Part shown: positions 17,481 to 64,000 of the stretch, one piece after another | How the letters are laid out: each line of letters starts with the position of its first letter | Position numbering within the stretch: position 1 is the first letter of the stretch | DNA from: Sclerodactyla briareus | Lineage: Eukaryota; Echinodermata; Holothuroidea; Dendrochirotida; Sclerodactylidae | Assembly: GCA_026419785.1 (NCBI GenBank) | Contig: JAODTK010002654.1 | Coordinates: 1-64,000, forward strand | Length of the DNA: 64,000 nt | Direction of reading: 5' to 3' | Position numbers and translations under genes: made by a program | Notes under the pieces: generated by a model | Databases searched by the model: none | What the model saw: only the letters and a program-made list of their open reading frames with translations | Told to the model about the DNA's origin: nothing

Positions 17481-18290
17481 GATCCTATATCAACGGCCTG
17501 AAGCTTGATAGAGACTAGAAAACGCTGTTCAAATTAACTTTTGGCTATTTTCCCTTCGCAAAGAATACAATTCAGCTGGCAGAGCTCGCCTCAACAACAT
17601 TTGCGTGTAGGTGCGCTAGGCTGAGCGTATTGTGTACTGCACTAACTTATTTTATGTATGTGACTTTTGTGGTTTGTATTCGTAAACGTAACATGGCAAA
17701 TAAAGTGTTCGGATTGCGCAATCATAAATTGATGGCGCTATTGCACAAACTTGGGTAAAATATTTCTGAGGTTGGGTACAAGTCCCATCTGCCAATGATC
17801 CAGAACATTTTTTGAGAGTCTGATTTTCAACTACTACGCAATTCTTCAAAAATAGCGCACTCTCAAAGTTTGAACGCCTATCTTGGCAGCCGCGGTCATC
17901 AAATTGGTTCCGGACTGACTTCAGAAATAATGTTGACCTAATACCTACCGTCTGTTTCGAGAACGCAATTATAAAGGATCGAGATCGCCACACCTGAAGT
18001 TTTTACGTACCGGTCTCGGCTTATTCGGTCCGGACTAGTCTCTCATAGGCAGTGCTAGTGGTGTTTCTTGTAGAGGCGAAGGATGGGATTTCTAGACTGA
18101 TGGAGGGGTTCCTCTGGGGTGAGAGGCGTCAAGTACCGGAGTTCCTTGGAACATGCCGTATGCATGGTATGCAGACTCGGAATTTCTTTTCTTCGATTGA
18201 CCGTAATTGGAAACAATTTGCGCAATCATGAAACCATAATAATATACGTAGGCCTGTGGCACACTCTCCAAGTTCTAAATCGGGTGGGGC
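17481..18290. other. No gene recognised
   Basis: A 113-codon minus-strand frame (17652-17993) has no recognisable motif, and nothing supports transcription. Confidence 0.3.
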
Positions 18291-18294
18291 AAAG

Positions 18295-18760
18295 CACCTG
18301 GCACGGGGGTTACAGCCCTCTCCCCTCCCCCCTGACTCCCCCCCCCCCCTCTCTCTCTCTCCTCACTCTCCTGCTCCTTCCCAGCTTAGCAGCCCCCCCC
18401 CCCAGCGGTCCGTCAGCGGCATTTTGGCAGGGAGCAGGTCCGACCCCCCCCTCCGGCGAACAGCATTTCTAGGGGGGCCGCTGGTGAACCGCCAGCGAAT
18501 TAATCAGGAGAGCATGTTAAATTGTGGAAAATGTTGCCACCGAGCCACCGGCCAAATCTGCGCTGGTCCGTTGGCAGGTTCCGCCGGTGGCCCGCAGAAG
18601 GCGCCGCCAGCGGGCTGCAGGAGGTCCACCGGTGTCTTACTATCTGGTTTCCCTCTTTCTCTCTCCTCACAGGCTCTCCCGCTCTTCCCCTTTCTCTCTG
18701 ACAGGTTGCTTCTCCACTGACGTGACTGACAGTTTTTTCGTTCTCCAGCAGAGCTGCTAA
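18295..18760. repeat. C/T-rich and CCGCCAGCG-hairpin repeat
   Basis: A pyrimidine-rich stretch with two C-runs (about 18340 and 18392) leads into CCGCTGGTGAACCGCCAGCG, a short perfect hairpin whose AACCGCC word resembles the heads of the 10060/13020/22195 family. It then continues as GC-rich sequence with CCGCCGGTGGCCCGC and GCGCCGCCAGCGGGC, followed by a second pyrimidine tract. Overlapping Pro/Arg-rich frames on both strands are by-products of composition. Confidence 0.45.
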
Positions 18761-20929
18761 CATCGCTCTTCGTCACTGGGGGCGGACAGCACACCCGGAC
18801 AACCCCCGCCCGTCCCATGGCCAACAAAAATGTGAGATCTTGTCGAGGCCTACTAGATCATCTACCTACTTTACATAACGTGATTGACCATTAACGAGGG
18901 ACATCCATGATATCAGGTCGGAACTTGATAGGATGCATTACCGTGAGCAGAGGTGTATAGACACGAATTTCCGCGTGCTGGTGAGGGGTGGCTGAATTCT
19001 TGATTGATTTGATTTGACAGTTCATGAACACTGGTCCCATTTTCTTCCCGACTGGTGATCAGATGATATCGAAGCAGAGGTGAAACCACTCCACTCTCAA
19101 CCTGCTCTTTGACCCCCCCCCCCCCCTGTGAACTCCAGTGTCTGACCACTTTCTCGAAACCCAGAGAAGCGGAAAATTCATGCCAACCGCAGCAACTTAA
19201 GAGCCGGCTAAGGCCGACGATATGAACTATATGAGGAAGCCGTTCCTAAAAATAGAGGGGGATCTCGCTCTTCTTCGGTATACATATCCCGTAACATATT
19301 TGTTGGTTCGCAGGTCAAATCAACCGATTGGTTAATACGTCATCCTGCACAGGAGTGAATGAGGCTGATAGAGGTGAACAAGTCAAACGCCTGATTCAAC
19401 CGGCTAACTGCACTGCCGACAGCCGACCGACGAGACTCATTGCAATATCCCGAACTAACCCCAGAAACCCACGATGAGAATTATACCAAGAAATCGCCCA
19501 CTGGCAACGCAAGAACACTTCCAGTGAAAACGTCCAGTGACTACTGGAATGCGTCACTGATGCCACTCTGCCATTTTTCCGGCGTACATCGTCACGACGA
19601 AGGGCACCACACACAACCTGTATTTACGCTCCTGCCCCTGCACACGTCCTCCACTAAACTGAATTTTCAGCATGCTTTATGCTGATCAGATTAAACATAT
19701 TTTCAACATGGTATTATGGGAACCCATACATCAGGCGCGGTGCTACTGAGACCCTGTTGGGTCTGCTCGACGAATGTACTGTATACACTATATGAATGCC
19801 TTATGTCCTATATTTGCCTTGGCTGACAGAGGCTGAAGGACGGACAGATCAGGGACGGACGAATTTGCTGGCGACCGTGTGATGTTGAGCTCAACGTTCA
19901 TGTCAGAATGTAATAATGGCTGAAAAGCCCTTGCAAGGGCTGAGTGCTACTGAGCCCCAAACAAAAACAAAAACTTTATACCATGCGCGCCAGCTGAAGA
20001 TGCCGCTCCTCTCAGATGGTCACGTCATAAGAAACCCCCCATCCAAAAGAAAAAAAAAAGTAATAACACTGCCTCTACAAACGCACCTGCCATCAATGTA
20101 TAGGCGCAAAAGGTTCATATAATCGGAATTTACATTATCACGTTTTGCTTTATTTGAATTCAATTTTTCTGTTGACGGCACGAACTCCCATGATGGTACA
20201 AAGATCTTCGTCTTCATCGATGTACTCTTTTTGATAGAGTGTGACGATGTGCTCAACTCCAACGAGTTCCTTGTCTGGTCGTGGCATTACACATGCTTTC
20301 ATGCTTTACATTTTAGCCCTAGCTGGTACACCGCATGCTTGCTATTCGGTAAACTTTTAACACAACCTTGGAAAATCTTATTAAAAAAAGGTAAACATTT
20401 TCCTGAAATTGAGTCAAAGTTCCTGCCCAGCATAGTCAGACGGTACAGTCAAGTACGAAACCAAGTCAGGGCAAACCCAGTCACCACAGGCAGGCTGACA
20501 GGCATCCGAGGCAGCGCATAATCGAAAGATCGAGAATTCGAGTAGCGCAAGTGATCATAATGTGGGCGAAGAATGGTGAAAATTTCTGCAATCTGAGTGA
20601 CCTATTTCTCTGAAAATTCTGTCAACGATTCGTGTCAAAGCTATGGTGGCGCTCCGTTTAGATATTTGGCAAAATCACCTTCACATTTCACAGCAAATAA
20701 CAACAAATTATTCACATTATAGTCACTGCCGCTCAGATAATAATGGCCAAAATGCGCGGGTTGTGCGTTCCTATAGCTCCACCTGTTACGTGAATTGTTA
20801 ATTTGTAATGGGGCTTAGTATTTATGTTTATTTGGTTTGAAATCACCTCAGCTGGCTTATTCTTCCACTGCAAAAAAGATACATTGGGCCGTACGGATGT
20901 TGTGTTGCTAATTGATCGCGTGTATCCTG
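18761..20929. other. Gene-free stretch
   Basis: C-run near 19112. Several 60-100 codon frames (for example 19440-19685 and 20231-20521) show no familiar domain. Confidence 0.3.
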
Positions 20930-32439: not shown

Positions 32440-33877
32440 GCGCCACACGAAAATTTGCGGTTTAACACCTCCAAATCGCCGGGAATGCCCGTCGGGAGCA
32501 TGAGAGGGGACCGTTTTATATACTCACACTATCGATAAAAATTAATCCTTCTTGTCGTGGAATTACAGTGAGAACAAAAAATGATCTTGCTTTGCAATCA
32601 TACTGAAATACATTGAATCTAAATGAAGGGTTGGCTTTTCCTTCTCCACATACCTACTCACACAGAATATAAACCAAACGCCATACGAGTGACAGCATTG
32701 ATTCCTCTGCCCGGAGCCCTACAGTATATGCCAGACAATAAAAACTTTATTTATGGTCATGATATGAATACAGTGCCGTATATGTTACTTCGTTTCATCT
32801 TTAAGAATCAGTCTGGAAAAAAATGAACGTGTGACAATCGGTTCATGTATGAAAACTGATGTGTAAGTGTCCATTGACATGCATTTTCTCCTTCATACAC
32901 GTAAATATTAGATCAGGATGAATTCACTGATGCACATTCAAAACAGCCTATTCGTCGGAGATGAGGCAAACTGCATCGGCTTTGGCGGCTGCAGCTGAGC
33001 TGGGAAATGCGTACCAATGCATGAAACGAGCCATCGCCTGGAACATCATGCCATGATTTCCATGCCAGGAGCAGTGACATCTTTCGCAAACCGCCCCCTC
33101 CCCATGCTTTGATATATAAGGGTTATACTTGGCAGCTTGCTGTCGCGTCCTTGTGCAGAACGTTCGAATACTGTGGTTATTAGCCCATTATCTCTGTCGT
33201 TTATTCCTCACTGGTCTCTGGATGCAAATCAGGGGCTCGTCACTCCGTTTCGAAAAGTGGGGGGGGATGGGGGCATGTGGCTTGCAATGTACTTATCGAG
33301 CGGCGCGCCACTATTAGGTTGGCGCGGAGCGCACCCAGAAATTTTGGCTCCTTATACTCCAAGATTAGCGGAAATGGCACCGCCGGCGGACCTAATGGCA
33401 AAGAATCTGGCTGTGCAATTTCAGTAAGGAAAAAAGTTTTGAAAGAGTTTTCATCTGCAGGATATAGGCGGATAATTATAGCAACACAGCAATTACGGCC
33501 TCTTTATTGTTTTTATGGAAGACTACGTCAGCAAGTGAGTTCAAAATAAATACAAAAACTACAGCAAATTTACAATTTACGTAAAAGGTTGAGCTAGGAT
33601 TGAAGCCAACCCTCTTTCATGTTAGCCATTTTAAATATCTGATCAGCAAAGTGCAATAGGTTGATTTCCCGGTGATTGTACCCACCCGTTTTATGGTGTG
33701 GAGATGATTTGGGACGCCATCAAACGGAGCCCAATATGCTTGGCACGAATCGTGAGAAAGTTTCAAGAGTAATAGATCACTCGATTACAGGAAATAGTAG
33801 ACCAATTCCCTTACTTGACTTTGGTGGCGCAGCTGGAAATTTTTTCAGTGAGAGGCGCTGGAGAAGGGGAGCTAGAG

Positions 33878-34885
33878 CAGTGGCGTCGCCAGATTTTCGT
33901 CTAGAGAGGGAGGCACAGGGGGGCGGTGGGAACGGACAATTTACTATCTGAGCGGAACGCCACCAAGTGCTGGCGCGGAGCGCCATGAATTTATTTGATT
34001 GTTGCACGCCCCAGATGGCCGGAAATGCCTTTCCCGGGCGTTTATGATCATTTGGTGATCCAATTTTTGTAATCGGTGGGAAATTTTGACATTATGCCAG
34101 ACCTCGGTCCTACCGTTGTCCCGACTTTAACTTTTCAGCCACAATGTTCAACAATTGCTGCGCCATACTACTATCCACCAGTGCGCGCGAAGCGCGGCAA
34201 TGTTACTCAAGAATTCCCAGAACAATCTGAGAAAAATCATAATCTCAGCGAAATTTAGGACATTTAGCCAACTTTACCTCTACTGTCCCAATCATGATTA
34301 AAACGTTATGCCATAGAGAAAACCTGGAGAAAACACGCGTTGAAAATTAAAGCAGTCTGATAGCCTAGGGATACGGCCAGTTCACAAATGAACGTGGATG
34401 AGGAGAGGAAGAAACGGACAAGAGAGGGTTTAGTAATCCAAAAGAGGTTGATTGTAGTGTCAAGTTCATGAGAATTTGTTATTGTATATATTTTCACCTC
34501 ACAGATATGTATAAAGGTGGGGGCCATGAGGAAGAAATTTTCCCCGGCAATAAGAGTTTGCAGAGATGTTGGGAGATGGCCGAGAGAGAGACAAACGAAT
34601 GCCAAGAATTCCACCTAGTACCCACGCGCGAAGCACAATCGTAGTAGTACACATTATTGTGCAAATCAGAGGCAAAAATTGGCCCCCATTCGGCTACTGC
34701 CTTTCTTGACATGAAAAATCAACAAATTAGCTAGGTCTTATCAAATGGTCGTCGAATACTGACTACACGAATATTCTTTCGAATTTCATTGGGGGTGGGG
34801 GGGTGGGAACACGGGGTGAGGGGCACATGGTTTTCGAGAGGGGATCGTCCCCCCCCCCTCCCCCCAGTCCATTGGCGACTCTTAC
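33878..34885. mobile_element. Nested element with CAGTGG inverted ends, copy 1
   Basis: The left end reads CAGTGGCGTCGCCAGATTTT. The right end, reverse-complemented, reads AGAGTCGCCAATGGACTGGG, a decayed version. GCTAGAG precedes the left end (33871-33877) and recurs just beyond the right end (34889-34895), possibly a target duplication. Both ends abut or approach G/C runs. CAGTG-type termini are common in hAT-superfamily non-autonomous elements, so hAT is my inference. No transposase is visible. The equivalent in copy 2 is at 51139-52128. Confidence 0.5.
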
Positions 34886-35689
34886 TAGGCTAGAGGATTA
34901 TATGGTCGTTTGATTCAATTATCTTCAGACGGAGAGACAGACTCAGTTGGTGAATAGTACTGAATTTCGGCCGATATGAGGCCTCCCAGATGTTAGAAAA
35001 GCACTTCCCAATCTCCTGGTCCTTTTCACAGCCTTGTTTTCATAGGGTGCTAGACATGAAAGGTGAGTTGTCAGATTATCCGAATTAATTACGCAAATCT
35101 CAAAAGGTTGCCTAAAAGGTCCATTTAAGTTGACGAAGAAGAAACCACCATTTTTTGTGGGCACTCCCCCCCCCGTAGTTTTTGTGTAAACATTTCACTT
35201 TTGCTTCCACCCGCTCTTAATTCTCCTATTCTTCGCCCGAGTTGCGCTATTCGATCTAAAACTTCTTGATATACTTGCACTGCCTCGGATGCCTAGACAA
35301 GGTGTTGCTCTAGCAGATTATGGTCAACTTTTCGACAAAGGATGTCAACATGAAGTCAGGTCGAATGAGTGTCACTCATGCTTATTCGGGTCTGTGGCGG
35401 ATCCACCGAACTCATTGTTAACCCCATGGAGTTTTTTCCCTGCTAGCCTGTAGTGGGTGGGGGAAAGGTGGGGGGGGGGACTCCTGGCCCGATCCGATGT
35501 TTTATCCTCCGGAACCGGATGCTGAAGATTGTACCTGATTTAAACTCGCGAGGAGGGGGGGGTGGGGGAGGCTAGTGCTACTTTGTGGGAACTTCTTCGA
35601 CACGGCTTATATGACTCACATAGCCTACTCACTTTTCATTTTTGGTTTCTCTCGTATTTTTTACCACCCATTCAGTTCTCTTATTCCGC

Positions 35690-36844: not shown

Positions 36845-38228
36845 TTTCTCTAAAAATTGGTAGACTATGACGTCCTCAAATGTTGTCAATTTGCAAAATT
36901 GCCAACTTAGCAGTGAGTATTTATTAATCTTTAAAAATTCGTAACTTTATAACCGAACATGCTATGAACATGAAACAAAGTTTGATTTGCATAAATTTTC
37001 AATGCACAATCATATGACATTTAAATATTTTGGCTGGCTTGTCCTTTGATATGCATACAGATGGGGCAAGGGGGGGGGGATCAAACAAGTAATAATGTAT
37101 AACCGTTGACTGGTATCCAGTACAGTAATCTTGTCAAACTGCGAAAAAGTTTTTAGCAGCTCTCACGGAATACCATACTGCGAGCGGTAACCGAGGATGC
37201 GGTGAAGTGAGGTATGTTTTAAAAGAGGAATCCAATCACTTTTCTCAGCCCACACGATGGCCTCGCTAGAATATGGCAAGACTGGCAGAGCACACTAAGC
37301 CAAAAACACGGAGCTTGGACTCTTTGCTCAGATAACGCGACCGGCAGACAACACTATCCAGTGATTTGCATGTCTGACGTCCAACAAATGCCCAGTTCCG
37401 GGCGTCTACTGACCTCCGACTCACATGAAGCAGAGTCACTACTGACACTGAGGTAAACAAATGACATGGTAACTTCCCGTTCTAGCCCAACACCTGGGCA
37501 GGACCCAGTAGTAGCACTGTCCAAGATTCCACCATAGGGACTTGATTTAGTCGTGGTCCGTGTCACCTGAAAGGCCCAACGGATTTGACTCCTGACTAAG
37601 TGTTCCAAGGGCATCAACCAGAGAATCCACAAACTCGCGCGAGTTATAATGCAGTATCAATTCCGCTTAGTCCAGGTCAGTGTGGTAAAGATCAATCCCT
37701 AATTAACTGAGAATAACGAATTGTGAATATTTTCATATATCAACATTGTGCAGGAATTAATCTTTAACTCACTACTCCATTCCTATAAGCCCCAGAAAAT
37801 TTCCACGAATTCGAATTAGGCTGTTAAGAACCATTATGCCGGAATCACTCCCGAGGTGGTTGATCTCATTCCCCCTAACCAAAAAAAACAACACTAATTT
37901 GGTAAGTAAAACTCCCATGACGGCGGGGTGTTTATGTTTGGCCAGTTTGTGCCATAAACATTCGACACTGTATAAAAAACCTGACTATTTAAATTAGATT
38001 CATAGGAAATCGTTATATGTATCATTGTAATTTTGATAATCTCCATAAGAGGGGCAAAAAGGATTTTTTGTGGTTTTGTTAACAGTATAATCATGTCAAA
38101 ATAAGTCAATATTGTCAATATTCTCAAAATCTTCTATTGCCAACTTACACGTACATGTTTACATTATCGTTCATAACAATAGAATAACATTTTCACGAAT
38201 AGCGCAATAATCTGCATCAAATCTTAAC
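36845..38228. repeat. Tandem array unit 1 (1.37-kb unit)
   Basis: Begins at GGTAGACTATGACGTCCTC. It includes TTGCCAACTTAG, TTTATTAATCTTTAAAAATT, CATGCTATGAACATGAAAC, the antisense LINE segment (37150-37670), a GAATTCGAATTAG word, TTTGGCCAGTTTGTGCC and CATTGTCAATTTTGATAATC-like words. The same order recurs from 38229 and 39599. Units differ mostly by single-base insertions and deletions. Confidence 0.9.
37150..37670 (-). mobile_element. LINE RT fragment in array unit 1
   Basis: The minus strand encodes, with frame changes, EFVDSLVDALGTLSQE (palm/thumb boundary), FVYL...SDSASCESEVSRR, CRSRYLSKESKLRVF and SLHRILGYRSQYGIP. These correspond to the conserved region after the ADD box of a non-LTR reverse transcriptase family that shows YLGS, RYLxxxTKxRVF and SLRRIxGYRW. 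The catalytic ADD is damaged in this unit (RIDTAL), and the N-terminal endonuclease and RT fingers are absent. It is a truncated, non-functional fragment amplified as part of the tandem unit. Confidence 0.75.
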
Positions 38229-39598
38229 ATTGTAGATATGACAGGCATCCAAATGTTGCAATTTGCCAAAAATTGCCAACTTAGAGTGATTATTTATTAA
38301 TCTTTAAAAATTCGTAAACTTATAACCGAACATGCTATGAACATGAAACAAGTTTGATTGGCATAATTTTCAATGCACAATCATATGGACATTTAATATT
38401 TTGCTGGGACTTGTCCTTTGATAGGCATTACCAGATGGGGGCAAAGGGGGGGATCTAACAATGTTCAAATGTATACCGTTTGATGGTACCCGTACAGTAA
38501 TCTTTGTATGTAAACCGAACAAAAAAAAAGTTTTAGCAGCATATCACGGGAATACCATACTGGAGCGGTTTAACGAGATGCGGTGAAGTGAGGGGTAGTA
38601 GTAGTAAAAGAGGAGGGAATCCATCACTGTTCAGCCCAACAGCGAGGCCTCACTAGAATATCAAGACTGAGGCACATAGAAGCCAAAACCACGGGGGAAA
38701 AAAAAAAAAAAAAAAACTTGGCTCTATTTGCTCAGATAACGCGACCGCGAACAAACCCTAATCCGTTGATGTCATGATCCACATGCCAGTCCCGGGCGTT
38801 TACTGACCTCGGGCTTCACAAGAAGAGAGTCAACTAATGACACTGCGGATGTAAACAAATGAACATGGTAAACTTCCACGTTCGCGCACCACCCTGGCAG
38901 ACCCGTTAGCACTGTCAAGCTTCCACCGAGGAGACTTTATCTTAGTTTTGGTCCGTGTCACCCGAAGGCCCAACGGATTTTGGCCTCCCGACTAAGTGTT
39001 TCAAAGGCATCACAGAGAATCCACAAACTCGCGCGAGTAATGCATATCATCCGCTAAGTCCATGTTCAGGTGTAAGATCAATCCCAATAACCTGAGATAA
39101 ACGATGGGACATTTTCTTCATATATCAACTATGTTTCAGGACTTACTCTTTACATTCACTACTCTTTCCTTATAATCCCATAAAATTTCCACGAATTCGA
39201 ATTAGCTGTTAATGAACCATACGCCGGTCACTCCCGAAGGTGGTTCTTATCTCATCCCCCTAAAAAACAACAACACTAATTTTGGTAATTAAACTCCCTA
39301 TGACGGCGGGGCTGTTTATGTTTGGCCAGTTTGGTCCCATAAACATCGACACTGTAAAAACCTGACTATTAAATTTTGGATTCATAGGACTCGTCTATAT
39401 TATCATTGTCAATTTTGATAATCTCATAAGAGGGGAAAGGATTTTTTTTGTAACAGTTATAAAATCATGTCAACTAATTCAATATTGTCCATATTCTCAA
39501 TCCTTATATCGCAACCTTACACAGTAACTGTTTACATTATCGGTCAGGTAACAATAGAATAACATTTTCACTTGTCCTGCAAAATCTGCATAAATCTA
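38229..39598. repeat. Tandem array unit 2
   Basis: Second 1.37-kb unit, same content and order as unit 1. It carries an extra stretch of about 19 A at 38698-38716 that is missing from units 1 and 3, and many one-base indels. Confidence 0.9.
38535..39060 (-). mobile_element. LINE RT fragment in array unit 2
   Basis: Antisense LINE segment equivalent to 37150-37670. SLHRISLN, ARER-like and REFVDSL-like words can be followed in changing frames, with the 19-A insertion in the middle. It has more frame breaks than units 1 and 3. Confidence 0.65.
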
Positions 39599-40558
39599 AA
39601 TTTGGTAGATATGACGTCATCAAATGTGTCAATTTGCAAAATTGCCAACTTAGAGTGATTATTTATTAATCTTAAAAATTCCTAACTTTATAACCGAACA
39701 TGCTATGAACATGAACAAAGTTTGATTGGCATATTTTCATGCACAATCATATGACATTTAAATATTTTGGCTGACTGTCCTTTTGTTATGCCGTACGATG
39801 TGGCAAAGGGGGATCTAAACAATGGTCATAATGTATACCGTTTGACTGTATCCAGTACATTAATCTTTGTAACTGCGAAAAAGGTTTTAGCAGCTCTCAC
39901 GGAATACCATACTGCTAGCGGTAACCGAGGATGCGGTGAAGTGAGGTAGTAAAAGAGAAGTCCAATCACTGTCTCAGCCCAACAGCGAGGGCCTCAATAG
40001 ATGATGGCAAAAGACGGAGGCACAATAGAGCCAAAAACACTGGGAGTTGGCTCTTTTGTAGGGATTAACGCGACCGCGACAAACCACTATCCAGTGATTG
40101 TCATGACTCCAAATGCAGTCCAGGGCGTCTACTGACCCGGGCCTTCACACGAAGAAGAGTCATAATGACAGGCGGAGGGTAACAAATGACATGGTAAACT
40201 CCACGTTCTCGCCCAACACCTGGGGCCAGACCCCAGTGCACTGCAAGATTCACCAGGAGAGACTTGAATCTAGTCTTGGTCCGTGTCACCCGAAGGCCCA
40301 ACGTATTTGCCTCCCGACTAAGTGTTCCAAGGGCATCAACCAGAGAGTCCACAAACTCGCGCGGTAATGCAGTATCATCCGCAATCCGGTCAGGTGGTAA
40401 AGTCAATCCCTACTAACTGAGATACCGAATTGTGGAATATTCTTCTTTCATATATGAACTAGTTGCGGAAGTAATCTTTAACATTCACTACTCTTTCCTT
40501 ATAATCCCATTAAATTTCCACGAATTCGAATTAGCTGTTAATGAACCATTACGCCGGA
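39599..40558. repeat. Tandem array unit 3, left part
   Basis: Third unit, starting GGTAGATATGACGTCATC. It runs normally to AATGAACCATTACGCCGGA (40558), where homology stops. The rest of the unit (ATCACTCCCGAAGGTGGTT onward) resumes at 42423. Confidence 0.9.
39895..40406 (-). mobile_element. LINE RT fragment in array unit 3, ADD box intact
   Basis: The best-preserved of the three. The minus strand reads RIADDTALPREFVDSLVDAL (ADD at about 40374-40382) then GTLSREANTLGLRVTRTKTR, the classic A/FADD box followed by LGL-V---KTK of non-LTR reverse transcriptases. It continues with SLHRILGYR near 39910-39935. Only the C-terminal half of the RT and the thumb are present. Confidence 0.8.
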
Positions 40559-40789
40559 CGCCACATTCACTACGGTCTCCAAACAAGATATTGCATATGC
40601 AATTCATGACATAGGCCTACTACCTTAGCAGGTTACAATATCAAAATCTATACAACTTCTCTCTCTTGTCCTCGGCATCCCATTCCAAGAAATATGGATA
40701 TCTCATTGGAACACATTCTCTTGAACGAACTTAGATGATGGTAGTGCCGAGGTGTCGTCCACCTTTCCGCACCGGTCGCCTCGTCTCGA

Positions 40790-41700
40790 TTTGCAGGCGT
40801 CGAGCTTGGCTCCTGGAACATCCTCTCACTCAAGGGAAGCTACATCGGTCTTCAAAAGGTTGGACGTGAGCCAACTGACGGATCCGAAAGTAGCCACATA
40901 CTGATGAGCCTAGGCAGTTGTTTGAAGGGCTGGAGGTGAATATGGGCCCGCGCAGGGATGAACGAGTCAAACCCTGCTTTTCTCAAGACAGGTAATGCAT
41001 CCTGAGCGTCCTAATAAGACCCACTGGGAAATTTCTAGAGAAACATTCGGATCCATCCAGTGGAGTCGCCAGGCCAGGCTCATTAATAAGACTTAGCTTT
41101 CTAGGAAGCTTCGGAGCATGGTACTGAAGGCACTGCCACGCTCGAATCATGATCCCGAAGTCCAGCGGCTCTGTGAGTCCGTGGAGAAGTACCTGGCAAC
41201 GGATGCCTCACAGCCAGCCTACAGAGCGATTCTCTGTAACACTGTGCCGAAGCGCCAAGGTAAGATGGTAATCTGGTTTGAGGGCCCGCAGGGCTGGCTC
41301 TCTTGAGAATTTGTACAAATTCGATACCCCAAGTTCGGAAATTCAGATGGACGGTGCTGCAGCTCGTGGCTAAACCGCATGTAGACGGCGGCGTGCCTAC
41401 TATCGAGGAAACTCGAGATGCATTGGAAACAGTTAAAGGGCGGGGAAAGTTCTTGGGCCTGTGGCATACATCCAGAGATGCTTTGGGCTAATGGCTAGGA
41501 TGCCCTTCAGTTATTATATGATCTCAGTTCGGAGCTCTGGTGACATCGCAGCCGACTAAAAAAGGGACTTATTGTTCCAATTTTGGGAGGGGAAGGTGAT
41601 ACTCGGGACTACAATAACTAAAGAGGGGTTACACTCCTCTCAGTTACTGGCTAAAGATCTTTGTTAGGACCATCCTGAACAGAGTCCGTTGTCAGCTGCT
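40790..41700 (+). mobile_element. LINE linker and RT N-terminal fragment
   Basis: Segments read in changing frames: RLDVSQLTDPKVAT (about 40860), RPNKTHWEISRETFRSI and SRQARLINKT (41015-41095), LCESVEKYLATDASQPAYRA (about 41170-41225), PTIEETRDALETVKG (about 41400-41445), then GLIVPIL-GEGDTRDYNN-RGVTLLSV (about 41565-41645) and SLLGPS-TESV. This is the expected order of the endonuclease-RT linker, the SRPAYRA block, the DE--EA---LK block and the first RT motif of the same LINE type whose C-terminal half lies antisense in the array. It breaks off before the ADD box. Confidence 0.75.
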
Positions 41701-41704
41701 TGCG

Positions 41705-41945
41705 CATCGGTGGTAGCGTGGTATCAGTGACACTTCGCTAGCAAACAGTCCGGATTCGAAATCCAGCTGTCACCGGACGTTTTTCTCTAGGTGCTGTACT
41801 TGCAGTTACGGTGGGCGAGGTCTTGGTTTTCACTTCTGGTTCCGCTGTAATACGTGGACTTTCTAGGATACTGGGCTTTGTTACGGGATATTTGCATTAA
41901 GTCTCGTCTGTCGTCTGTGAGCAGTCACGTTGTACTTGAACATCC
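41705..41945 (+). mobile_element. SINE-like repeat, copy 2
   Basis: TGGTAGCGTGGTATCAG (A-box-like) and CCGGATTCGAAATCC (B-box-like, 41750-41764) are followed by GCTGTACTTGCAGTTACG, GGGCGAGGTCTTGG, TTTGTTACGGGATATTTGCA and GAGCAGTCACGTTG. It corresponds to the first half of 23285-23710 and preserves the tRNA-like promoter better. Confidence 0.65.
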
Positions 41946-42422
41946 GCTCAACAGCGTCCCGATGAAATTAGTGAAAGCTTGTTGCTATAACCAAGACCTA
42001 AATTGAATCCCATGCTCCAGGTCATTAACGAAGACGATCAAGTTCCTATACCGCTTGTGTTAAATCTTGGCAAAACCAAATGCTTATTTTCCGCATATTT
42101 TATTTATGATAAACTCTATTTGCTAACAGGATCATTCCGCTTCTTCATAGAAATATTGTAATTTAGAAATTAATTTATTAATTTAACACAACCTTTGATG
42201 ACTTTGGTAACCAGTGACTTGGGAATAAGAGAGAGAATCCAAACGGAAATAAACAGCATTATTACTATTGAATTCCGAAGTCAATTGTTTAGACTGCCTT
42301 GCTCCATGTCATATATCTACCAGAATATAATGAGATACCAAACTACGACTTCCATTGTACTTCAAAATCAGTATGTCGGAACCAATTTCCTTATCAAATT
42401 CAGAATTAAATACCAGATTAAA

Positions 42423-42793
42423 ATCACTCCCGAAGGTGGTTCTATCTCATCCCCCTAAAAAAACAAACAACATTAATTTGTAAGTAAAACTCCTAGTGAC
42501 GGCGGGGCTGTTTTATGTTTGGCCAGTTTGTGCCATAAACATTCGACACTGTAAAAACCTGACTATTAAATTTAGGATTCATAGGAAATCGTCTATATGT
42601 ATCATTGTCAATTTTGATAATCTCATAAGAGGGGAAAGGATTTTTTTGTAACAGTTATATAGGTCAAATAAGTCAAATAGGGTCAAATTCTCAAATCTTA
42701 TATGCAACTTACACAGTACATGTTTACATTATCGTCATTAACACTAGAATAACATTTTTCACTGTTGCAATAATCTGCATCAAATCTTGTAAG
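42423..42793. repeat. Tandem array unit 3, right part
   Basis: Resumes the array unit after the insert: ATCACTCCCGAAGGTGGTT, GACGGCGGGGCTG, TTTGGCCAGTTTGTGCC and GATAATCTCATAAGAGGGG. It ends near GCATCAAATCTTGTAAGAT, where a fourth unit would begin. Confidence 0.85.
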
Positions 42794-50044: not shown

Positions 50045-51138
50045 TGCCTTCTCGGGGTGGAAATACACTGAAAACAAAGATGATTTTTGCAATCTTACTG
50101 GAATATAGGGAATCCAAATGTGAGGGTTGAGTTTTCCTTTCCCCATAATTCAGATTAACACCATATAGGGATGAGATCAATGATGACATTCAATACGGCC
50201 CGACTCGTTAAATCGGACAGGGAAGAAGCGAACTGCATCGGGCTTTAGCGGCTGCAGCTGTGGCTGGGAAATGCGTACAATGCATGAAATGAACACGAAC
50301 ATTCGCCCTGGAACATCATGCCTGAATTTTCCATGCAGGAGAGCAGTGGCACCTTTTTTGCAAAAAGGCCCCCTCCCCCCCCCCCCCCCCCCACCACCAC
50401 CATGCAGGATATGTGCGGGTCCCATACTTGGCAGCTTCTGTGGCGATCCTTGTGTAGAAAGTTTTTTTTAATATAGTGGTTAGCCAATTCTCTATGACGG
50501 TTCTTTATCACAGGATTTTGATGCACCGATCAGAGCGTCAATCGTCAAACCATTTCGAAAATTGGGGGGGGGGGGGCGATGTGGACGCAATTTACTATCT
50601 GAGGGGAGCGCCACTATTAGTTGCTCGTAGCGCAGCCAGAAAAGTTTGTTTTTTATACCGAAAATGGCACTTGTCGGGCCCATGTCACATTCTGAAGCGA
50701 AATTTCAGTAAGAAAAGAATGTTGAAGAGTTCAGCTTAATTAGCGACACATCATCGACGGCCTCTTCCTATTTTTATGAAAAGGAATATGTCAGCAAGTG
50801 ATTATGGTTACCACCAAACATAAGTACCACAGAATCGCTGAAGTTTACAATTTACGTGAACAGGTGGAGATAGGATGAACCCAACCCCCTTCACTCTAAG
50901 CATTAATCTGATCAGCAAAGTGACACAGTAGGGGAATTACTGTTACACAGTAAACCCGTTGTGTGGGATATAATTTCGCCGGGTATCTAAACGGATGGCC
51001 CAAACTTTGTTGGCTCCCCCGTTGAAATATTATCACTCAGATTGAAGGGGAATAGACTTTCGGTACTTGTCTTTAGTGCGAGCTAGGATTTTCAGTGGAA
51101 GGCGCTAGAGGAGGGAGGAGGGGGAGGGGCCCCTAGAG

Positions 51139-52128
51139 CAGTGGCGTCGCCAGATTTCCGTCTCGGGGGTACAAGGCACAGACTTTACAGAAGGCACAAT
51201 AATACTATTCGACTGAGCGCCACTATCAGTTAGCGCGAGCGTACACGAGATTTTTTTTTTAATTTTGCAAGCCCCCAGATGGCCGGAATGGGCCTTTCCC
51301 GGGCGTTGCTGCACAACCAAGCTTACACCTTACCATTTTTTGAATCAAAATTGTGTATCATGCAATTTGGACATTTTCATTTTGTCGGACCTCGGTCCTA
51401 TCGTTGCCCCGACTTTCCATTTTCTACCAGAATGTTCAAAATTTTTGCGCGCCGCAATTTTTTCTCTCAAGATTTCTAGACCAACAATCTGAAGAAATCA
51501 ATCCTCCCAGCAGAAAGTAAGAGCCCACAGGTTCGAAGGCATTTTGCCGCTTCAATCTCTATCACTGTCCCAATCTGCCAACATGATGTAAAGTTATGTC
51601 AAAGAGAGCAGGGAACGAGTAGTAGTTCCCTGGAAATAAACACTCGTTGAAAATCCAAGCAGGGCTGATAACCCACGGCAAGTTCAAAATTTCGCGTGGG
51701 TTGAGAGATCATTAACGGACAGAGGCTAAGGGTTTTTGTATCCAGAAGATGTTGATTGTAGTTTTAAAGTTAAATGAGAATGTTGTTTGTACGTAATATT
51801 TTCACCCTCAACCGATATGTGTATATTAGAGAAGGGGGCCAATGAGGCAAACTTTTCCATAGAGCTTACAGAGAGCAACGGGACGAATTCCCCACTAGTA
51901 TCACGCGCGGAAGCAACGGTCCTTTGTCCCCTTTCAGTGCAACTGCCTTCTTGTCATGAAAAGCAACAAATTAGCCAGGTCTAAACCACACCTTTATCGC
52001 GAATAACTCTACAATATTCTTTTCGAAAATCACAAATCTCAGTGGGGGGGGGGGGGGGAGGCACGTTGGAGAGGGGCCCTGGTTTTCGAGGGGGAACGTT
52101 CCCCCACCCCCCATCTTGGCGACCACTA
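51139..52128. mobile_element. Nested element with CAGTGG inverted ends, copy 2
   Basis: The left end is CAGTGGCGTCGCCAGATTTC. The right end reverse-complemented is ACTAGTGGTCGCCAAGATGG, a clearer inverted match than in copy 1 (AGTGG-TCGCCA-GAT shared). CTAGAG borders the left end and recurs at 52141-52146. It has no coding capacity. hAT-like affiliation is inferred from the CAGTG terminus only. Confidence 0.5.
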
Positions 52129-53044
52129 GTCTATAGGCTACTAGAGTGAGAGACGCATCGGTTGGTGAGTAGTTACTTCGGGAAATAGGCCTCCTAGATG
52201 TTAAGAAAAAGCATTCCCAATTTCCCTGATCCTTCACAGCCTTGGATGTTTTTAGGGGCGCTCGACATTGAACTGGTGAGCTTGGCATATTATCCGAATA
52301 AATATGCAATTCTCAAAAAGTTGCCTACATTCATTGAAGTTTTACTAAGAAACCAACATTTTTTGTGGGCACTCCGTAATATTTTGGGTAAACATTTCAT
52401 TTTGCTTCAATTCACCCTCTTTTCGCCGTAGTTGCGCTACTGCGAGTTCTGCCTCAACTTGATTATGCACTGCCTCGGATGCCTGTGGACAATGTGTTGT
52501 TCTTACTTGATTTTTAATGTCCCTGAACGTACTTTCTTACCATTTAGGCGGGGGATGGGAGGGGATTTATGACGTGTCCATCTAAGCGGAGCACCATCGT
52601 CGCCTGATGCGGATCGTATTAGGGATTTTTTTAGGGCAAGGGGGCTTATAGACAACCCAACCGCGCCTGGTGAATGGGTTCCGAGTTGGGTTAAACGGTT
52701 AAACAAAAATGTATTTCGAAATTGAATTCAACCCATGCCTTGCCTTATACGGTTATCAGGTTTTAGCGGGTCAACATGTGGCGGAATCCACCGAAATCAT
52801 CACCCATGACCTTTCCCTCTGATAGCTTGTAGTGAGTGGGGGGTTCCGCCTCGATACAATATTTTATCATCCGAGATAAACCGGAAGCTGATGACGTAAC
52901 ATTGATTGGACCAGCGGAGGGTGGGGGGGGGGGGCTCGTGCTAAGATCGTGGTAACATTCCTTCTAAACTGGAATGATATGCGTATATTACCACAATAGC
53001 CTACATCACTTTTCAGTTTTGGATTTCTCTCAAAATTTTTTAAC

Positions 53045-61200: not shown

Positions 61201-63422
61201 TCTCAACTGTGTTTTTACATTTGTTTACGTTTTAACGGGTTGGATTTTTCTTGATATACGAATCAGGAAGGAATCATAAGCTCAATAGTCATGTCCAACA
61301 TTTCCACTGACCTTCTTCAATTCTTGATTTTCATATGGCCCTCCTTGAATCGTCCCCCCTAACAAGCTGTAACTTGGATGTATCTATACCCAGCCGGTCG
61401 CTCTTCAGAGGTTCATCATCCTTACCGTTGGCATGGAAAAAGGCTCTCCATTTCCTGTATATTATTAGACATGCATTACAGACATTGGCAAGCGGCTAAG
61501 TTTTGTGGAGCAGTCAATTCGTAAAACAAGGCTCGTCGCCTCCCAACACCCTGTGAATAATTCGTTGCAATTTCTCTTATTGGAATTGGACAATCAAACT
61601 TGTCGACTGGTCAATGCTTTTCTATGATTTCCAATATTCTGGGCCATTTTGATCACCATTTTGGGGGGGGGAAAGAAATCAAATTCGTCATCCTGGTACC
61701 GGCTGCATCTTTTGTTCCGGTAAACTCATATCACCATCACCTACACAAATATTTGGCAACCGATTTTTACAATTTTTTCACAGCTGGATTAAGATATTTG
61801 GGTTATTATCTTTTGTTTGCCCTCTTGTGAAGTAATGAAAAGTGTTGATAAAGTGTTTTGATGTCAATCGCTTGGTACAAGGACGGATCTTGAAAAAGAA
61901 GAAAGAAATCTGGTGGCTTGAGTATTTCAGCCGTCATTGATGGTCTAATACAATCTTCACACAGTTATAGCAGGGAGGTTTAATTATTCCTACCGAATTT
62001 TTTCTAATCCCTTCGCCGGAGAAAATTAACGCAGGCTGTGTAATTGTGCATGCGTATGTTGTAATGTGCGTGCGTGTGTGTACTTGTTCTTACATTTGAC
62101 CTAAGCGAATGAATTTTGGGGAAGGAATTTTCATTACTATATTTCAAGTCCTGGATAAATGAATTTCAGTCAGTGTTCATAGCACAGCGATATAGAACAA
62201 AGAAGTAGCTAAAACAAATGTGTACGTTCGAGCGGGTGGGACGCGTGTGCGTTTTTTTTTGTTGTGTGTGTTTGTGTGTGTGTGTGGCGTGTTTGGGGGT
62301 GTGTCGCTCTTATACTCAGTCGGCGCGTATACACTTGAATGCACAATATTGAGCGGATTGCCCCCTTTCATTTGGTGTCATATCGTCATAAATAATATGG
62401 GCAAAATTCCTGAAATAGGTATATTCCCGTTTTTCGTATTGGTAGGTGAATCGGAAAACATTGTGTAGGCTATGTCCTTAATCGAATGTGTAATTAACAT
62501 GTTTCGTACTCCCGTTACCTTCTCTAAGTTGAGGGGAGGGGGGGGGGGGTGTCGTCGCTTTAGTAATCCATCAGTGGGCGTGTCCAGATTATTTTTTAAC
62601 TGAGTATAACTCAACCACCCCCAACTTGTCAGCGTGTGGGCAGGTTGTGTTCCCACACAACCGCTAACATTTCCTATTGTTTAGACCCTACTTTCGCTTG
62701 TCTACTGCTCGATGGCACAGTTGTATGACAACCGAGTTTACATATTGTTCTGTTATTGTTTCATGTGCTGTCGTTGTTAACCCTAGACACTGGAGCATGT
62801 GGCTGTGCTCACATTGTTTTGGTGATTGGTAGAAGTGGGACATAAATGTTGGCCAACGTTTCAGTGCAGCTAATTGATATCCGCGGAGGCGGGTCCAGAA
62901 CGAATTCAGCTGAGTTTCCTTGAAACTGATTCTATTTAGGTTAAAAAGACATCTTTTGTAGCCGGAAAGCGACTCGGCGATAATTTTTAATTCAGGTACA
63001 CACAGACAGGAACATGCCTATACCACTCGTTAGTCCTGACTCCAATTGAGTGACTGAGAACCTCAAATGTACATATTTGAGTAGTTTTTTTTTTTCAACA
63101 GTTTCTTGCAACAGGTTCTGTCAAGAAATAAGGCCCAGAATGTTTTTACTCGGTTGATTGATGTTTCATCATTAGGCCAGCGGGTTTCGCTTATGTGGTT
63201 TGTGGTTTCGAATGCCATTATTTTCGAGATGTGGTCGTGGCTTAGAGGATTTCCATTTGTCATCTGGAGCTAGCTGTTTGACGATTCTACTCGAATCCTA
63301 GCCATTTACATTAATGAGGGGCGGGGATAGATAGAATTGGGAAGACGGTATATGATAGTACGAAACAGTTACGTAATTGGATCGCATCTCATTCATGCAC
63401 TCTTCCGATTAGTGGTTTTCAG
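61201..63422. other. Upstream of IL-17 exon; no first exon found
   Basis: AT-rich sequence with GT-rich microsatellites (62245-62300) and a G-run (62530). I looked for a signal-peptide exon feeding the IL-17 segment. A frame at about 62398 starting MGKIPEIGIFPFFVLV beside GTAGGT/GTGAAT donors is possible but too weak to call. Confidence 0.3.
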
Positions 63423-64000
63423 GATCGCCAACTCATCACATAGCTGCCATGGGTCCTAAGTCTGATGTAGCTCATCGATGGAAGAGTCATCCCCACCAGC
63501 TTCCCCACCAGCTTCCCCACCGTGGGGGAGTGTACCTTCCCCGACGCCTTTGCCTACAAGCGCTACCAGGATACCAAAGCGGAATTTTACCCCTACAAAC
63601 CTCCTACGGACTCCAGCTCTTCCCAATGAGGGGCGAGAGTGATCGGGAGGACATCACCCCCCAGAAGAACCCATACAATCGGTCACAAGGAGGAGGGGTG
63701 TCCCGTTGGGCCAGAAACCCCTAGAGAACAAGCAGTTGACCCCCGAGACGGCGAGCAACCTGTTCCCTGGTCTTACACGATCAACCACGACCAGAACCGG
63801 ATTCCGACCACGGTCGGTCGCCGTGGCGGTGTTTGTCGCTGCAGGAAGGGTGTCTTGCGACCCGGTGACTGGCAACCAGCGCCTCGATGCGACGTGCCGC
63901 GAGGTTCATCTAAAAATGAAGGGCCTACGTAGTGTGGGGGTTGCGGGGAGGGGCTCTTCCATTACCGAATTGAGAATATGAGTGGACTGTGGCGGGTGCT
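63423..64000 (+). CDS. Interleukin-17-like cytokine, partial, frame-broken
   Basis: IL-17 proteins are secreted cystine-knot cytokines. The plus strand encodes, in successive frames, GECTFPDAFAYKRYQDTKAE with FYPYKP (63525-63600), an N-RS sequon region (63660-63690), EQPVPWSYTINHDQNRIPTT (63753-63812), VCRCRKG (63831-63851), SCDPVTGNQRLDATCREVHL then KMKGLRS (63853-63933), and GCGEGLFHYRIENMSGLWRV (63939-63998). PW-Y--N-D-NR-P, followed by C-C, C-DPVTG, a V----LR strand and C--GL--Y, is the IL-17 fold signature in order. At least four frame switches (near 63626, 63720, 63835-63850 and 63930) divide it, most simply one-base errors, although a pseudogene is possible. TTTTCAG at 63416-63422 could be the 3' splice site. 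The start and signal peptide are not identified. The window ends before the expected final GCxC cysteines. Confidence 0.82.

Follow-up and report, generated by a model that had tools for sequence, protein, structure and literature searches.

Families of IL-17 genes are described from cnidarians to chordates and are reported to be large in several marine invertebrates (PMC8353272). Published accounts present the IL-17s of invertebrates as cystine-knot cytokines with expanded repertoires, often in tandem arrays, whose domains, those of mussel included, contain 6-8 cysteines (PMC8353272; PMC4517768). According to the same sources, mussel IL-17 genes most often consist of 2 exons, and certain IL-17 forms react to bacteria in mussel gill or in the gut of sea urchin larvae (PMC8353272; PMC4517768). 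CPW or SPW motifs occur in the invertebrate proteins with sporadic variation of the third residue (PMC8353272), and signal peptide prediction was negative for 18 of 54 invertebrate IL-17s (PMC4517768).

The window analysed in our study, i.e. the whole stretch of 64,000 bases, corresponds to bases 1-64000 of contig C2094 (434,951 bases) in an assembly of 319.5 Mb and 3171 contigs. The sequence of C2094, which runs on beyond the window end, matches the window wherever both overlap. An initial annotation had placed an IL-17-like gene, hidden by frameshifts and pieced together from three frames, at the end of this window, and all motifs quoted for it were found there. The reading of the domain alternates between only two frames, however, in the order A-B-A-B, so that the frame changes 3 times within about 370 bases (frame A comprises the codon starts divisible by 3, frame B is the other frame used). 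On the forward strand, the first half of the IL-17 domain lies in frame A at 63645-63851 (...VPWSYTINHDQNRIPTTVGRRGGVCRCRKG), with PWSYTINHDQNRIP at 63765-63806 and VCRC at 63831-63842. The middle of the domain follows in frame B at 63853-63930 (SCDPVTGNQRLDATCREVHLKMKGLR; SCDPVTG...TCREVHLKMKGLR) and its late part again in frame A at 63942-63983 (CGEGLFHYRIENMS). The end piece VDCGGC is read in frame B at 63982-64000, where VDCGGCLASRKP begins and runs beyond 64000, the translation continuing there with LASRKP.

These pieces are located in a GC-rich and hence exon-like stretch (63481-64000, forward strand), which is probably the domain-bearing, last exon. GC amounts to 0.59 in 63501-64000, a value reached by 0.34% of the 500-base segments in 94 kb. 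It is still 0.52 at 64021-64080, beyond the window end, and ranges from 0.34 to 0.50 in the remaining 250-base segments across 60001-66000. A candidate splice acceptor CAG, proposed from reading the sequence, precedes the exon at 63420-63422 on the forward strand; it is weak, with a poor pyrimidine tract. Short of a systematic search, neither a first exon nor a signal peptide was noticed. Frame A contains a stop codon at 63627-63629, which is of relevance if the exon extends that far. The window has one other strongly GC-rich island, at 18101-18900 (500-base GC up to 0.63), whose frame 18232-18717 gave no match in a Pfam scan at E<=0.1.

In a scan against 24,736 Pfam models, the open frame 63645-63923 (frame A) taken alone matched the IL17 family PF06083 over positions 3-30 of the 81-position profile (E=4.6e-4), its 21 bits lying below the curated cut-off of 24 bits. 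When the four frame pieces were joined by X, with the bases left unaltered, the composite scored 27.1 bits (E=5.6e-6) over profile positions 3-72 and passed the cut-off that the best single frame misses, although these values are inflated because the pieces were picked by eye. The composite matched no Pfam family other than IL17. Its match includes the middle piece in frame B and ends within the late piece in frame A, 9 positions before the end of the profile; VDCGGC is outside it. In the Pfam scan, an IL17 match was absent both for the B piece alone and for the B-A-B end without frame A. A sequence search of solved structures yielded nothing significant among the 11 sequences listed, the top 3 of which were IL-17F (E=0.065-0.17) and the remaining 8 DNA methyltransferase 1 (E=1.6-4).

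A genome-wide search with PF06083 gave 3 matches above the cut-off, all on contig C1489, and the place in the window was not among them. One of the C1489 IL-17 genes is open over 145 codons. Frame-broken look-alikes are present on this contig as well, one at about 97.8 kb, recognised by motif, and one at 137.3-137.7 kb, which is 48-53% identical to the intact gene at 148 kb (E=1e-22). Altogether, about five IL-17-like genes (L001-L003, L021-L026) are clustered on C1489 in about 51 kb, from about 97.4 to 148.4 kb, and at least two members of the cluster are frame-broken.

Three of these approximately five copies (L001, L002 and L003) were used as frameshift-tolerant queries against both strands of a 94-kb part of C2094. 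The frameshift-tolerant search, suggested in the initial annotation as a check, agreed with it for two of the queries: L002 and L003 both ranked the window gene as the top place in the 94 kb (scores of 53 versus 41 for the next place and 55 versus 39, respectively), and the observed score was matched by 0 of 1000 dinucleotide shuffles for L002 and 1 of 1000 for L003. With L001, in contrast, the window place was not among the first six places in the 94 kb, and 141 of 1000 shuffles scored as high. In the reverse search, the window composite served as query for 80 kb of C1489, where its two best places were IL-17 copies, at 97.5 kb (56) and at 109.6 kb (50), just ahead of a place not known as IL-17 (49). 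Further IL-17 copies scored 48 (at 98.0 kb) and 43 (at 148 kb), and the 137-kb copy was outside the first eight places. A genome search with frame A as query found the frame itself plus one match with E=0.41 that contains a stop; the C1489 genes were not recovered at E<=1. Judged by these comparisons, the kinship of the window gene to the C1489 IL-17 genes is real but distant. The assignment to the IL-17 family made at the outset is supported by the one-frame Pfam match (below the cut-off), the X-joined composite (above it) and two of the three paralogues.

The noise level of the assembly was assessed with conserved genes, actin and tubulin, which were aligned frameshift-tolerantly using query proteins assembled from this genome's own frames. 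The 3' exon of actin, in three copies of 172 codons each, contained 4, 2 and 1 frameshifts, i.e. 7 in about 1.55 kb, with two of the 4 shifts in copy 1 being only three codons apart and thus possibly a single event. These copies were chosen from 16 matches (the C2088 matches and C2792:288580 were left unaligned), two of the three after frame breaks had been seen as adjacent pieces in different frames. For the large tubulin exon, three copies chosen from 7 matches (358-361 codons aligned) exhibited 3, 11 and 14 frameshifts, i.e. 28 in about 3.28 kb. The broken housekeeping exons are located on C1260 and C2792 for actin (L008, L012, L016) and on C2306 and C894 for tubulin (L033, L034, L036). All six copies together contain 35 shifts in about 4.8 kb, corresponding to about 1 per 140 bases, a value to which some of the copies, the more broken ones, may contribute as true pseudogenes. 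Frameshifts remain even in the copies of the two genes that are broken least (actin 1, tubulin 3), which gives 4 shifts in 1.6 kb. For about 370 bases these values predict 2.7 shifts at the mean rate and about 0.9 at the lowest rate, compared to the 3 observed. One sign that the indel noise is uneven across the assembly is the IL-17 frame on C1489 that stays open over 145 codons. Since so many dead copies of such genes are implausible, we take most of the shifts in the control genes to be assembly errors, although intact copies may exist elsewhere in the genome. The aligned actin and tubulin copies are as broken as the window gene, and its frameshifts are therefore most likely assembly or sequencing indels and not biology. 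The assembly is probably a poorly polished one of long reads. The frame switches of the proposed hidden gene are present, but as housekeeping genes are broken too, being hidden by frameshifts tells little about the biology of the gene.

The same indel density affects the reading of the conserved residues. The position of CPW/SPW, a motif that is recurrent but not universal in the family, reads VPW in frame A. We regard it as a departure and not as grounds for exclusion from the IL-17 family, and an indel near the codon is possible. From VPW through DCGGC, the composite contains 7 cysteines (VCRC and DCGGC provide two each, SCDP, TCRE and CGEG one each), with a spacing that spans the frame breaks. 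The usual end pattern of the IL-17 family is GCxC. The initial annotation had expected this end just past the window; a candidate terminal cysteine pair does exist, but it reads Cys-Gly-Gly-Cys instead of GCxC and is situated inside the window, at 63988-63999, in frame B. At such a density of indels, neither VPW nor C-G-G-C can be trusted as a real departure.

Taken together, we consider it probable (about 0.8) that an ordinary cytokine gene of the IL-17 family is represented here by its domain-bearing exon, in which the breaks are mostly indel errors of the assembly. Alternatively, it might be a genuine decayed IL-17 pseudogene in which the frame breaks are real mutations of a dead copy, a reading that we regard as unlikely. 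Three frame switches in a short exon would fit a dead copy, as would the frame A stop, provided that the exon extends to it, and VPW and C-G-G-C deviate from the usual cysteine pattern. Furthermore, the same assembly keeps another IL-17 gene open over its 145 codons, the least broken control copies predict only about one shift here, and the tandem expansion described for IL-17 families (PMC8353272) may leave dead copies behind. However, with three actin and three tubulin copies also broken, the breaks are of little diagnostic value, and between them the motifs of the window gene are well preserved. It is likewise unlikely that the gene represents a divergent subtype of IL-17 whose cystine knot is altered (VPW in place of CPW, C-G-G-C as the end) and which would stand apart from the C1489 cluster and lack a close copy in the genome.

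A collage by chance, i.e. frames assembled by eye into the likeness of an IL-17, seems very improbable. The match of frame A by itself, obtained against all of Pfam, argues against it, and so does the first rank that two paralogues gave to the window place in 94 kb. Such a collage would be consistent with a composite selected by looking, with middle and end pieces that lack an IL17 match when taken alone, with L001 scores little above those of the shuffles and with a genome-wide PF06083 search that did not report the place.

Other cellular genes may be present in the window besides the IL-17-like one. Ten of the 85 listed open frames with 90 or more codons were scanned against Pfam, and a single match (E=0.063), below the cut-off, was obtained. 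No matches in the window were obtained from Rfam at gathering thresholds or from scanning for tRNAs. A search for COX1 gave no match at E<=0.001. At 36849-42788 the window contains tandem related blocks (36849-39227 and 38222-40557 are 79% identical), of which a unit of about 380 bases recurs at 42422-42788. A dispersed repeat, about 2.3 kb long, occurs twice, at 32916-35311 and 50169-52503, in copies which match in three pieces with 67-72% identity and many gaps.

As an ordinary member of the family, the window gene would, by analogy with invertebrate IL-17s, encode a secreted, disulphide-bonded cystine-knot cytokine. Such a cytokine might act via IL-17 receptors, whereby innate defence genes would be switched on. 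The gene is presumed to be intact, expressed, secreted and functional, and a mucosal function would be expected from its relatives. For the use of this assembly our results imply that claims of absence, decay or hidden genes need a frameshift-tolerant search together with a housekeeping-gene control, given about 1 frameshift per 140 bases in the aligned conserved coding stretches.

Compared to vertebrate IL-17F (PDB 5n92, 3jvf, 1jpy), the window gene exhibits a weak local similarity over PW-YT-D-NR-P; with a best E of 0.065 this match is not significant, and orthology is not claimed. The invertebrate IL-17 family (PF06083) typically has CPW or SPW and ends in GCxC, whereas the window gene has VPW and C-G-G-C. 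It further differs from this family in its interrupted frame, for which the assembly is most likely responsible, and, as judged from the protein search with frame A as query, in having no close copy in its own genome. As in the invertebrate family, other members exist in the same genome, here clustered on another contig (C1489). The window gene likewise shares the PW...D.NR.P stretch, the CxC and a late Cys-Gly region with the invertebrate IL-17s described (PMC8353272; PMC4517768). What is new here is probably one more member of the known invertebrate IL-17 family, ordinary as a gene.
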